From a virus, in IMG/VR virus record IMGVR_UViG_3300006086_000006, positions 62,001-126,000 of that record: a stretch of DNA of 64,000 nt; one strand, 5' to 3'. The notes below the pieces were generated by a model. That model did no database searches and was not told where the DNA came from. It saw only the letters and a list, made by a program, of their open reading frames with translations. The position numbers and the translations under genes are program-made. Positions 6,249-47,034 of the stretch are shown piece by piece. Position 1 is the first letter of the stretch. The number at the start of each line of letters is the position of its first letter.

Positions 6249-7144
6249 TGGTTAAGCGCAGTGATGACGAAGGTATTGACGTTAGTTTTGGTAAGGTTAT
6301 TAATCGTGATATAGACGAAGATGCACGTAGACGTAGAGGTACTTCCTCGAAAAGTAGCAAAGCAAAGCAACGCCTACGTGAAACAAAAACTGAAGCCGAA
6401 GAACGTATTACCAAACGAAAATCTACTGAGCGCGAAGAAGGTTATAAGAAGCGCGATAAAGAGCGCGATGCTAAAAAGAAAAAGACGAAAGAACCTGCTG
6501 TAAAAGAACGCGCTTCCACCAAATCTGTTTCTGAGAAAAAGAAAAAACCTAGAAAGACAACAGGGGAATTGTTGTCCGAAGGTAAACTAGATCGTGCTAA
6601 GAAACGATTAGATAAGTTTACTGGAAAAGCACTTGCAGTTATTGGTAAGATACAAGGCGGTGATAGTGAGTCGTTGCAAGGGCAATTAATGCCTCTTGGG
6701 GCTGTCACAAGTGAATCAGAATTCTTAAACGAATATGGTCGCATCTACGGTAATCTTCAAACGATTATGCGTAAGATGGAAACAAACATGCTCGATCCTG
6801 AAAAGGAATATGTTAGCAGTAAAGATGTATATGCCTTGTCCACACTATATAGCCAGATGCGTGAAACTATTGCAGATATGCGCTCGATTAAAGATATGCA
6901 AGCGCAAGCACATAGCTTGTCCGTAGAAGTTATTGATCCTGTTATGCGAGCTACTGGTGAAGGTATTTTGGACTTTTACTACAAGACAGGTCAAATCGTG
7001 CGACAGTATGTTTCAGATGCTCGCGTCATTGAAGTTATTGATGCGGCATTGAAATTGAACGCTGCCGAACAAGGTCAAAAGATCCAAGCTGAGTTTGAAC
7101 TAGCTAAATCTCGCATTATTGACGTATTGAATGGTACTAAATAA
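6248..7144 (+). CDS. Highly charged protein with basic N-terminal tail and helical C-terminal half
   Basis: 298 residues. Residues ~25-115 are extremely rich in Lys, Arg and Glu (RRRR, KKKK, EKKKK runs) and probably disordered or a charged coil able to bind nucleic acid. Residues ~115-298 look folded and all-helical. ATG at 6248 is taken because it overlaps the preceding stop; the GTG one codon earlier is less likely. A DNA-associated packaging or core protein is possible, but no terminase small-subunit motif can be seen. Confidence 0.5.
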   Translation: MVKRSDDEGIDVSFGKVINRDIDEDARRRRGTSSKSSKAKQRLRETKTEAEERITKRKSTEREEGYKKRDKERDAKKKKTKEPAVKERASTKSVSEKKKKPRKTTGELLSEGKLDRAKKRLDKFTGKALAVIGKIQGGDSESLQGQLMPLGAVTSESEFLNEYGRIYGNLQTIMRKMETNMLDPEKEYVSSKDVYALSTLYSQMRETIADMRSIKDMQAQAHSLSVEVIDPVMRATGEGILDFYYKTGQIVRQYVSDARVIEVIDAALKLNAAEQGQKIQAEFELAKSRIIDVLNGTK

Positions 7145-7467
7145 TGAAACGAATAGGTCCTCCGAAAATAGGTGTTGCTAAAGTTGCTAAGATACGCCGC
7201 ACATCTACACAGGCATACGGTACTCGCAGTGACTGGAGTATTATATCTGCTGCTGTCAAGAAACGCGACGGACATAAATGTAGACTGTGCCCAAGAGTAA
7301 CCTATTTGCAAGTAGATCACATAATACCTATATCTAAAGGCGGTCAAACGGTAATGACTAACTTATGGACCTTATGTGATATATGCCATTCAAAACGTCC
7401 TAGTAGTAAGTGTGCCAAGCACTTAATTCTACACCAGCGTAATAAAGATAAGGGGAAACGATTGTGA
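7144..7467 (+). CDS. HNH endonuclease
   Basis: 107 residues. The HNH core is visible: a zinc knuckle pair C46-x2-C49 and C78-x2-C81, the catalytic DH at 58-59, and Asn 73 in the pattern DHIIPISKGG..-TNL. It starts in a TAATG overlap. Proteins of this size and type are often found with phage packaging genes, where they nick DNA next to terminase, or as free-standing homing endonucleases; the sequence does not say which. There is no extra DNA-binding module. Confidence 0.85.
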   Translation: MKRIGPPKIGVAKVAKIRRTSTQAYGTRSDWSIISAAVKKRDGHKCRLCPRVTYLQVDHIIPISKGGQTVMTNLWTLCDICHSKRPSSKCAKHLILHQRNKDKGKRL

Positions 7468-16380: not shown

Positions 16381-16388
16381 GGACACTT

Positions 16389-16424
16389 GACTCGCCGCAT
16401 TTCACCGTGCGGTGGGTCCTTTTT
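16389..16424 (+). terminator. Rho-independent terminator
   Basis: An 11-bp GC-rich stem with two wobble pairs (16389-16399 with 16408-16418), 8-nt loop, then CTTTTT. It ends the 8.2-16.3 kb unit. It stands only 14 nt before the ATG of the next gene, whose ribosome site lies in that gap. Confidence 0.75.
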
Positions 16425-16437
16425 CTTGGAGATTACT

Positions 16438-16710
16438 ATGGTAGAAATAACATCCGATAATTTTGAAAGTGAAGTATTGAACGGAACTAAGACTGTTGTT
16501 CTTTTCACTTTACCTACAAGTGGTCATGGTAAGATAATGTCAGAACGTGTTGCCACATTACCTGTTAGAAACTTTATTGTTAATGCTGCTGCATGTAAGG
16601 AAGTGTGTGCTAAATTCGGCATTAACAAGATTCCAACTACTGTTGTATTTGTAGACAATGCTCCTGCTTTAGTTCGATTTGGACTTGCGGTAGAATCAGA
16701 ATTAGTGTGA
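16438..16710 (+). CDS. Thioredoxin-fold protein lacking the CxxC active site
   Basis: 90 residues. The ATG at 16438 has TTGGAG just upstream and follows the terminator. The pattern is that of a short thioredoxin: strand TVVLFTLP at 19-26, then the active-site loop, then 'INKIPTTVVF' with the conserved cis-Pro at 66 and the following strand. Where thioredoxins have WCxxC it reads TSGHGK, so it cannot be a dithiol oxidoreductase through that site. The two Cys at 53 and 57 belong to a later helix. It is flanked by terminators on both sides. It may be a structural accessory such as the thioredoxin subunit of T7 polymerase, and it does sit just before the polymerase gene; this is inference. Confidence 0.65.
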   Translation: MVEITSDNFESEVLNGTKTVVLFTLPTSGHGKIMSERVATLPVRNFIVNAAACKEVCAKFGINKIPTTVVFVDNAPALVRFGLAVESELV

Positions 16711-16738: not shown

Positions 16739-16798
16739 CGTTTACGAATACTGTAAATAGTTAGCCTATACTTATATAATTTTGTGGATAATTATATT

Positions 16799-19700
16799 AT
16801 GGCTAAAGTTATTTACGACACATACGAATACAATTTTGGCACTGCATTTAAAGGTACGCAAACCTATAATCATGTACAGTTAGCTAAGCATGTAAAGAAG
16901 GGTGCTGATAAGTTGTTGTTAGTATTGGATTACATGCCAACGGAAGATTTAAAATCCAGTCGCGTATTGTCTGGTGTTACTGGTGATCTACTGAAAAAGT
17001 TATTAGCTGTTACCAATAAGTACTATGGATACTCTCGTACTCTTGATGATTTCGATTGGTTAGCTGTAGCATTCAATGGATTTAAAACTGCTGGTGAGAC
17101 AGACATATTCAAACAATCTGCTAAAGATGCTTTCAAGAAACGTCTTGAGAGTATTATCACTTCGTACAAACCCAATACAGTTCTCACGTTTGGTCCTGAT
17201 GGTTATCGTGCATTGAATGGTGCCCGAATAGAACAGTATGGCGGTAAGATGCAACACTTATATGGTGTATCTACTCCTATTATTGTGAAGCGTGGTGATA
17301 AATCCCATAAGTGCAATCATGTACCTACTCTCAGTCTTAATACACTTATCAACGACCAAGGCTTAGGTAATGAAATGGCGTTGGCTGGTTATGTTGCTCG
17401 TAATATAGGTACGGCACTTAATGGTGAAATGCGCTATAAAATTCCTAAGTTAGAATACACTACGGTGCTTGTCGATAGTATCAAAAAATTTAAAAAGATG
17501 ATTGAGGCAATTATAGATGAACCCCGTCTGAGTATTGATACGGAGACTGAAAATCTCAATCGGCGCGTTAATCGTATGCTTACTGTGCAGTTTGCAACCA
17601 CCACCAAAACCGCGTATGTTTTGCCATTCCTACACAAGGATAGCCCCTTTACCTCGGAAGAATTGCAGTATATAAAGAAGGTGCTACGCGACTACTTTGA
17701 GCGTAAAAACAAGAATGATGTGCATATTTTTGCTAATGGTACCTTTGACCTAACTGTGTTGCGTAATAATCTTGACATTCGATTCTTTAAGACAGATATA
17801 TGGGATATTTTCGCAGGCGAATTCGCTTTAGACGAAAATTTAAAAAATCTGTCAGGTGTCACTGGTGCTTATTATTACAGCTTGTTAAATCTTTCTATGC
17901 AATATGGCTGCACAGCTTACTATGATGCTGAATTTGGTAAAGACAAACGTAAAACAATCGCACAAGTAGATTTGGATGAGGCACTGTTAGAATACTGCTC
18001 ATTAGATGTTATCATACCTCTTCATATTATGCGCCTTCAGTTACAACGTGCCAAAGACGAAGGTTATAAGAAGTACAAAGACATTGTTAGAAAGCAGATC
18101 AGTGATATGATTCACATGTTCTCCACATGGGAATTTAATGGTTGCCCTACAGATATTGAATATTTGTTTTATCTACAGACACGCGATAGTCCTATACGCC
18201 AAGAAATGGACAATATTAAGAAGAAGTTTTATGAAACAAAAGGTGTGCAGAAAGCTAATGCTAAGCTGTTAAAGAAAAGCGGTATGCCTACAATTGGTTT
18301 GTTTGGACGTTCAGATGTTAAAGTTTTCGACATTGCTAAACAAGACCACCAACAGTTGTTATTCTTTGATGTATTGAAATTAAAACCTACCGGCAAAGGT
18401 AAAGAGAATTCTAAAGGTAAAGCTAAGTTTAAAGTAGATAAAACATTCCAGAAAAAATATGAAGACGTTGAAGAAGTTAAGTTATTCCAAGCACTTGGTA
18501 AGGCTAAGAAGTTGTATACTTCGTATGTTAAAGCCTTCATTAAGCAGTGGGGTTCTGATGATGATATGCGTTTTGATAAGCGTATTCGTCCACACTTTGG
18601 CTTCTTGGACGTTGTTACAGGTCGTACAAGTGCGCAGAAACCTAGTCTGCACCAAATTCCATCGCGCCCTGAGTTAGGTAAACATATTAAGCGCTTGTTT
18701 ATCACAGAGAAGGGTAGAATACTAATAAAAGTGGACTACTCTGCCCACGAAGTGCGTTGCCTAAGCCTTGATAGTTATGTGTCTACTGAAATTGGTATGG
18801 TCAAGCTGCGTGACATTATAGAAATGCACGATAAGCCTTTAGTTCATTCTTTCAACCATGAAACTTGTGAAGTTGAACTCAAAGAAATCGGCACACAGTC
18901 TGTTCATCCGCCCGAAGAAGATATGTATGAGATTGGATATTATGGTGGCACTATAACTGTTACAGGTAATCATCAAATATGGTCTGTTACCCGTAATGAT
19001 TACATAAGAGCGGATGAAATTGTAGAAGGTGATGCCTTGCGTGTGCAGTATTCCGCTGTTAAAGTTACATCTATTAGAAAGGTCCCGCGGCCTGAACTTG
19101 TTTGTGACATAGGCATTGCTGATAACCACAATCTGTTTGTTTGCGATAAACCCGAAGATACACCGGTGTTAGTACACAACTGCTGGTCCTTGTTTACTGG
19201 CGATAAGACAGTAGCCGATTTGTTTGCAAATGGTCGGGCGTTACGTGAGCAATATAAGTTACACCCTGATCCAGAATTATTGAAGCGTGTTAAGTTAGAA
19301 GGTGACGTACACAAAATAAATGCAGCATACTTCTTCGGTATTCCTATTGAGAAAGTTGATAAGAAAATTCGTGACGCCGTTAAGGCTGTAATCTTTGGAT
19401 TGATCTATCAACAAGGTATGAACGGTCTATCTAAATCAACTGGGCAGACTGTTGAAGCTATCGAGAAATTGGTAGCACAGTTTAAGAAGAAGCATCCTGT
19501 TGGTGTTAAGTGGTTTGATGCTATTAAACAGTTTGCTCGTGACAATTTGTATGTTGAAAGTCCTATTGGTCGTAGACGCCATACTTGGGGTCATTTGATA
19601 CCAAAGAATGCTACCAAAAATGCGGATAGCGTGATTGCACGTAATGAACGCCAGAGCGTTAATAGTCCTATTCAAGGTATAGGTTCAGACTTCTTGATTA

Positions 19701-20176
19701 ATGGTGCACGAAGTGTTGAACGCTTGAAGTTTGAGCACTTTGAGAAAACTGGTCATTATCCAGACTTCTACCAAGCAAACTCTGTACACGATTCCATTAG
19801 CTTTAGTTGCGCGTATGAAGACGTTTGGTTAGCGTTAGATATGATTGAACGCGGTCTTACTGATGAAGTCGCCAAAGTATCACAAGAACGACATGGTATG
19901 GACTTTATTGTACCTCTTGAGATTGACTTCGAGATAGGTAACAACGAGCGTGATTGTGAAGGTTGGACTTTTAGTATCGAGCAGCTTGGTGATATTTTAA
20001 AGAGTTGTTTGAAAGAGCAGCAAAAACTATATCCAGATATGGATGCAAAAGCAGTGTACAACAATATTATGCGTGAACAGTATGAGTACATGCCTAGCTG
20101 GGCTAAGACGCAGGCATGGAATTGCAAACTGAAAATGTCTGGTATGGATAAATCTGTTAAGAAAAAGGCAGCATAG
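16799..20176 (+). CDS. Family A DNA polymerase with 3'-5' exonuclease, interrupted by a mini-intein
   Basis: 1125 residues as precursor, 984 after removal of the intein. Exonuclease motifs: Exo I DTE at ~247-249, Exo II N..FD with Asp ~317, Exo III YCSLD with Asp ~403. Polymerase motif A is DYSAHEVR with Asp ~646; motif B is K862...Y870 in 'KAVIFGLIYQQG'; motif C is VHD with Asp ~998. All catalytic carboxylates are present. The intein splits motif A right after HEVR. ATG 16799 is chosen; a GTG at 16784 is possible. The ribosome site is weak (GGAT). It is the replicative polymerase of the phage. It stops with TAG, and the next gene follows in the same frame after one codon. Confidence 0.95.
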   Translation: MAKVIYDTYEYNFGTAFKGTQTYNHVQLAKHVKKGADKLLLVLDYMPTEDLKSSRVLSGVTGDLLKKLLAVTNKYYGYSRTLDDFDWLAVAFNGFKTAGETDIFKQSAKDAFKKRLESIITSYKPNTVLTFGPDGYRALNGARIEQYGGKMQHLYGVSTPIIVKRGDKSHKCNHVPTLSLNTLINDQGLGNEMALAGYVARNIGTALNGEMRYKIPKLEYTTVLVDSIKKFKKMIEAIIDEPRLSIDTETENLNRRVNRMLTVQFATTTKTAYVLPFLHKDSPFTSEELQYIKKVLRDYFERKNKNDVHIFANGTFDLTVLRNNLDIRFFKTDIWDIFAGEFALDENLKNLSGVTGAYYYSLLNLSMQYGCTAYYDAEFGKDKRKTIAQVDLDEALLEYCSLDVIIPLHIMRLQLQRAKDEGYKKYKDIVRKQISDMIHMFSTWEFNGCPTDIEYLFYLQTRDSPIRQEMDNIKKKFYETKGVQKANAKLLKKSGMPTIGLFGRSDVKVFDIAKQDHQQLLFFDVLKLKPTGKGKENSKGKAKFKVDKTFQKKYEDVEEVKLFQALGKAKKLYTSYVKAFIKQWGSDDDMRFDKRIRPHFGFLDVVTGRTSAQKPSLHQIPSRPELGKHIKRLFITEKGRILIKVDYSAHEVRCLSLDSYVSTEIGMVKLRDIIEMHDKPLVHSFNHETCEVELKEIGTQSVHPPEEDMYEIGYYGGTITVTGNHQIWSVTRNDYIRADEIVEGDALRVQYSAVKVTSIRKVPRPELVCDIGIADNHNLFVCDKPEDTPVLVHNCWSLFTGDKTVADLFANGRALREQYKLHPDPELLKRVKLEGDVHKINAAYFFGIPIEKVDKKIRDAVKAVIFGLIYQQGMNGLSKSTGQTVEAIEKLVAQFKKKHPVGVKWFDAIKQFARDNLYVESPIGRRRHTWGHLIPKNATKNADSVIARNERQSVNSPIQGIGSDFLINGARSVERLKFEHFEKTGHYPDFYQANSVHDSISFSCAYEDVWLALDMIERGLTDEVAKVSQERHGMDFIVPLEIDFEIGNNERDCEGWTFSIEQLGDILKSCLKEQQKLYPDMDAKAVYNNIMREQYEYMPSWAKTQAWNCKLKMSGMDKSVKKKAA
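18758..19180 (+). other. Mini-intein (141 residues) in polymerase motif A
   Basis: The segment interrupts polymerase motif A between HEVR and CWSLFTGD. It begins with Cys (block A: CLSLDSYV.T..G...L.DI). Block B is TVTGNHQIW, with the T-x-x-H pair. Block F is 'VCDIGIADNHNLFV' and it ends in VLVHN followed by Cys as the +1 extein residue. These are the four splicing blocks of a class 1 intein. At 141 residues there is no room for a LAGLIDADG or HNH endonuclease domain, so it is a splicing-only mini-intein. Confidence 0.93.
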
Positions 20177-46964: not shown

Positions 46965-47034
46965 TCTATGCGCAGGTAGCCTGACCGGCCTCTAAAACCG
47001 ACTCAGCAGGGTTCGATTCCCTGGCGTAGAGCCA
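46965..47034 (+). tRNA. tRNA-like gene with CTA (amber suppressor) anticodon, compressed D arm
   Basis: Acceptor stem 46965-46971 with 47024-47030 (7 bp, one G-T), discriminator G47031 and encoded CCA 47032-47034. T arm 47007-47023 with 5-bp stem and loop TTCGATT; variable loop 5 nt. The anticodon loop is 46990-46996 (CTCTAAA) with anticodon CTA at 46992-46994. The D arm is a 4-bp stem (CAGG/CCTG) with only a 3-nt loop, so the gene is 67 nt without CCA, and the anticodon stem has only 3 of 5 pairs. U1-A72, G73, U35 and A37 agree with glutamine identity. It lies between two genes. Either a real suppressor tRNA with reduced D arm or a decaying copy. Confidence 0.6.

Follow-up and report, generated by a model that had tools for sequence, protein, structure and literature searches.

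A contiguous class 1 mini-intein, predicted from sequence, directly after motif A of a jumbo-phage family A DNA polymerase

Conserved active-site motifs harbour many inteins, whose imprecise loss from such places is lethal, and in fractured phage genes a homing endonuclease gene lies beside a split intein. Among phage family A DNA polymerases (PolA), Lactococcus phage KSY1 gp096 (annotated ‘intein-containing DNA polymerase I’) carries an unsplit intein at motif B (AKA/CNFSLLYG, the slash marking the junction). Split or mini-inteins also occur in the family B polymerases of two jumbo phages, Salicola phage SCTP-2 and MIJ3, the intein of the latter being split and accompanied by an HNH endonuclease gene (PMC6892783). 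Phages of the crAss-like group are dense in inteins and introns (PMC7886860). Here, we analyse a 64,000-nt window (62001-126000 in a virus record of 146,824 bases, itself probably an incomplete fragment) from a giant (jumbo) PaBG/Lu11-like bacteriophage, in which a PolA gene is interrupted by a predicted intein. Like the KSY1 element, this intein is unsplit and resides in a phage PolA; in contrast to it, however, the window intein lies after motif A, so that the two do not share a site, and their sequences are not close. It shares with the MIJ3 and SCTP-2 elements its position in the replicative polymerase of a jumbo phage, but their polymerases belong to family B. The nearest relatives that we found are instead split inteins of phage replication genes, one of which fractures the PolA gene of a related phage.

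The polymerase gene and the borders of the insertion

The features of the locus, in window coordinates, are as follows.
16784-20176, + strand: family A DNA polymerase precursor (3′–5′ exonuclease and polymerase), 1130 codons including the intein.
16784-18757, + strand: N-extein, comprising the exonuclease domain and the part of the polymerase domain that ends with motif A, DYSAHEVR (from alignments to phages and 51 IMG/VR loci).
18758-19180, + strand: predicted class 1 mini-intein of 141 aa, without endonuclease (from catalytic residues, the gap against homologues, domains and fold).
19181-19183, + strand: Cys+1, the first C-extein residue, already Cys in the intein-free L010, L011, Lu11 and HRDY3.
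19181-20173, + strand: C-extein, the remaining polymerase domain, with motif B (R863, K867 and Y875) and motif C (VHDS, 1001-1004) (from domain matches, invariant columns and a Taq alignment).

The polymerase ORF matches the Pfam families DNA_pol_A (E = 2e-45) and DNA_pol_A_exo1 (E = 2e-9) and is 55% identical to the DNA polymerase I of Pseudomonas phage PaBG. Compared over the exteins, its nearest isolated relatives are those of the Pseudomonas jumbo phages PaBG, HRDY3 and Lu11 (about 53-58% identity), and the window shares with PaBG the gene order large helicase, polymerase, sliding clamp (a weak match in the window) and UvsW-like helicase. The ORF is listed from a GTG at 16784, although the ATG at 16799 is the likelier start, and it reads without a stop through 18758-19180, with the frame intact on both sides of the insert. 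Directly upstream lies a thioredoxin-like ORF (16387-16710; Pfam Thioredoxin, 5e-6); thioredoxin is the processivity factor of T7 polymerase, which makes a link between the two genes conceivable. Elsewhere in the window, a tRNA-Phe (46965-47034) has the predicted anticodon AAA, the usual one being GAA.

Aligning the precursor with six intein-free phage polymerases (PaBG, Lu11, HRDY3, JA33, NCTB and fHe-Yen9-02) leaves a clean, in-frame gap of 141 residues at precursor residues 659-799. In the intein-free phage homologues, motif A (...VDYSAHEVR) runs directly into (C/G)WS..., giving an empty site at exactly the HEVR/CWSL borders named in the original prediction, which had been made from the sequence alone. 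Mapped onto Taq polymerase, the site comes immediately behind the motif A arginine (DYSQIELR/V). Read directly, motif A is unbroken in 51 of 51 homologous IMG/VR loci and in 7 of 7 loci from isolated phages, none of which carries the segment as genuine polymerase sequence. The two closest intein-free homologues (L010 and L011, 65-66% identity) have the uninterrupted sequence HEVRCWSLFTGDK, which is exactly the predicted spliced product. Intein-free homologues already have Cys+1, so this nucleophile probably predates the intein at the site. The segment has a GC content of 40.7%, inside the range of the polymerase gene, and does not stand out as foreign by this measure. RNA folding of the region shows no excess structure (z = -0.22) and thus gives no reason to suppose a self-splicing intron, a candidate that we dropped.

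Insertions of another kind were seen in other PolA genes: six loci (L006:2339-3572, L032, L040, L048, L051 and L056) have frame-breaking insertions of about 0.3-1.2 kb upstream of motif A, near TSAxDPxLQQIPS. They look like self-splicing introns; one in L006 encodes an HNH-like protein, and no Rfam family matched insertions of this type at gathering score.

Residues, domains and fold of the inserted segment

The segment begins with Cys1 and contains a block B motif (T69-G-N-H72), block F residues D117 and H124 and a block G pair (H140-N141) followed by Cys+1, and these splicing residues are conserved in its intein relatives. As a single sequence, it matches Pfam Intein_splicing at E = 7e-7, with a score below the curated cut-off, scores 24.2 bits against NCBIfam intein_Nterm (cut-off, 24.5) and weakly matches intein_Cterm. 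A profile built from the segment and its viral relatives gave stronger matches to solved structures in the PDB, the top one being the bacterial intein-like domain 2lwy (3e-25), followed by the gp41-1, NrdJ-1, DnaX, DnaB and Mtu RecA inteins. An AlphaFold2 model based on a 21-row alignment has a pLDDT of 97 and a pTM of 0.90 and adopts a HINT fold; this quality rests on the alignment of viral inteins, as a single-sequence run reached a pLDDT of 41 and was unusable. Foldseek returned 64 PDB matches to the model at E ≤ 0.001, with the NrdJ-1 split-intein fusion 8ubs at the top (TMq 0.83, 2.1 Å); the others include HINT domains or inteins of DnaB, DnaX, gp41-1 and Npu DnaE.

No endonuclease domain was found in the segment with Pfam, NCBIfam or the AlphaFold2 model, and because the HINT fold occupies all 141 residues, there is no room for one. 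Across the whole record, LAGLIDADG_3 matches are confined to two other inteins, both outside the window.
G000:C1:40-2955, - strand, same record (L068): intein with a LAGLIDADG-type match in the P-loop of a RecA-like protein (GGEQSCK/STLAM).
G000:C1:5967-7652, - strand, same record (L068): intein with a LAGLIDADG-type match in a 562-aa protein of unknown function.

Taken together, the residue set (Cys1, T-x-x-H, D/H, H-N and Cys+1), the seamless in-frame insertion and the HINT fold without a homing endonuclease domain identify the segment as a class 1 mini-intein. That it is a contiguous one, located between R658 and C800 of the PolA precursor and splicing to leave the native polymerase, is in our judgement almost certain. 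The central claims of the original prediction are thereby borne out: a mini-intein interrupts PolA at motif A, every proposed splicing residue is present where it had been placed, it contains no endonuclease domain and the segment does align with Hint domains.

Predicted splicing and alternative readings

The arrangement of these residues suggests how the intein would splice. Cys1, aided by T69 and H72, would attack the R658-C1 peptide bond in an N–S shift; Cys+1 would then accept the N-extein by transthioesterification; Asn141 would cyclize with the help of His140, releasing the intein; and an S–N shift would produce the native ...DYSAHEVR-CWSLFTGD... polymerase. The unspliced precursor would be inactive because the 141 residues part motif A from motifs B and C, and since the whole 146.8-kb record contains no other PolA, splicing is very likely required for replication of the phage. 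The assertion that the phage must splice to replicate stands in this weaker form, as the record is probably incomplete and the count covers PolA among the polymerase families. A dependence of the intein on the place of its insertion for its persistence, also proposed, is plausible and would rest on the cost of imprecise loss from an essential active-site motif. With a defined junction and intein-free homologues that possess a ready-made Cys+1, the activity of the precursor is directly testable.

The intein might still be mobile in trans through an endonuclease encoded elsewhere, which would modify the reading as a mini-intein and is compatible with it. The UvsW split inteins of Salmonella phage S16 and Yersinia phage fHe-Yen9-02 have a gene between their halves, the one in S16 giving weak endonuclease-type matches, and the window itself has a free-standing 107-aa HNH ORF (7144-7467). 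This ORF, however, is about 9 kb upstream of the polymerase and unconnected with the site; among the genes on either side of the polymerase there is no endonuclease match, and the nearest relative of the intein (in L059, described below) also lacks an endonuclease gene between its halves. On balance, we think such mobility unlikely, at something like one chance in a handful.

A conditional switch, in which the polymerase would stay inactive until a redox, temperature or host-state signal triggered splicing, had also been put forward; it is speculative, and we consider it improbable. Some inteins are known to splice conditionally, the present one adjoins a catalytic motif, and besides Cys1 it contains C37, C116 and C130, with C116 adjoining the block F Asp117. 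Nevertheless, nothing in the sequence or its context points to regulation, a location at an active-site motif is shared by many inteins, and all the homologous loci that we read do without the intein. It is less probable still, to a degree that we regard as very slight, that the HINT domain cleaves without ligation, as a bacterial intein-like (BIL) or Hog domain, to yield a two-piece polymerase: the best PDB match of the profile is indeed a bacterial intein-like domain (2lwy), but Cys+1 is present, splicing would exactly restore the uninterrupted homologous sequence, and it is inteins rather than BIL domains that typically insert precisely into conserved enzyme motifs. Equally slight is the chance that an assembly artefact, or polymerase sequence of the ordinary sort in a clade-specific insertion domain, accounts for the segment. 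Although it is known from a single record, the empty homologous sites, the intein profile matches and the HINT model refute this in substance; the complete catalytic set, the intact frame on both sides, a GC content like that of the host gene and the two further inteins in the same genome also speak against it.

Returning to the mini-intein reading, we asked how widely its site is occupied, using viral contigs and GTDB species-representative genome contigs. Codon patterns were written for motif A with Cys and then a hydrophobic residue behind it. The PaBG-type pattern gave 0 matches, and the DYSQxE-type pattern matched 30 times in viral contigs and 5 times in genome contigs, each time in an ordinary uninterrupted polymerase; both are narrow, being built from exact codon sets with some serine codons and residue variants omitted, so that a rare second case could be missed. 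Searches with the polymerase or the intein in viral contigs, and with the intein in genome contigs, found no close relatives, and no second copy of the allele was found. No description of a PolA motif A intein appeared in the literature searched, intein registries and most subscription papers being beyond its reach. The kind of element is well known, and the insertion site directly after PolA motif A is apparently new and unreported.

Kinship with phage split inteins

The nearest relatives found for the window intein are split inteins of phage replication genes and not unsplit inteins. The closest fractures PolA of a related phage (L059:4001-7495, IMGVR_UViG_3300025288_000012) at exonuclease motif III (KY/CSYD). 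Its first ORF stops after 96 intein residues and its second runs from M-ASISKIRR... to ILVHN/C; its N half shows 38% and its C half 42% identity to the window intein, with E = 4e-18 and 1e-10, respectively, in pairwise comparison. The next relative, from the same phage, splits a DNA polymerase III gamma/tau-like (DnaX-like) clamp-loader gene (L108:1128-2857) at the Walker B motif (LLDE/CHQ), with identities of 33% and 38% for the N and C halves. Further relatives are the UvsW split inteins of Dickeya phage JA33, Yersinia phage fHe-Yen9-02 and Salmonella phage S16 and the NrdA inteins of Campylobacter phages; by profile and fold, the window intein belongs to the HINT subgroup of the UvsW, NrdA, NrdJ-1 and gp41-1 split inteins. 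The L059 phage genome has 18 intein-profile matches, several in terminase and one in a DnaB-like helicase. In another locus (L112:2357-5281), a terminase-like phage protein contains two inteins, the second being a 146-aa mini-intein related to that of the window (26% identity).

Both halves of the window intein are thus related to known split inteins, its residues 102-141 aligning with their free C halves with zero linker left over, but it is encoded as one polypeptide. Long branches distorted an initial N-half tree; rebuilt without them, the tree places the window intein as sister to that of L059 among the split inteins, the support being modest (88/86 and 84/90). When very divergent split halves were aligned, no stretch was conserved enough for scanning. 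By sequence, the window intein appears to belong with the split inteins by which phage replication genes are fractured, as the unsplit counterpart of the L059 PolA intein, and it may be a surviving unsplit ancestor or a re-fusion. A more specific scenario, in which a split intein became one chain again on entering the motif A site, and split and unsplit forms of the lineage move between sites of the same PolA gene in related jumbo phages, is one that we offer tentatively, judging it considerably less likely to hold than to fail.

The site after motif A of PolA is an apparently unreported addition to the active sites of replication enzymes that inteins occupy. Being small and contiguous yet akin to split inteins, the element may also serve as an engineering scaffold. 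The most interesting aspect is the kinship itself, as one of these phage split inteins interrupts the PolA gene of a related phage. Phage split inteins are made as two polypeptides, in some cases with a gene between the halves, whereas the window intein is a single chain. The L059 intein shares with it the PolA host gene and the same blocks, but is encoded by two ORFs about 0.2 kb apart at exonuclease motif III, in contrast to one chain at motif A, making the two a natural pair for studying how inteins split, fuse and move between sites.
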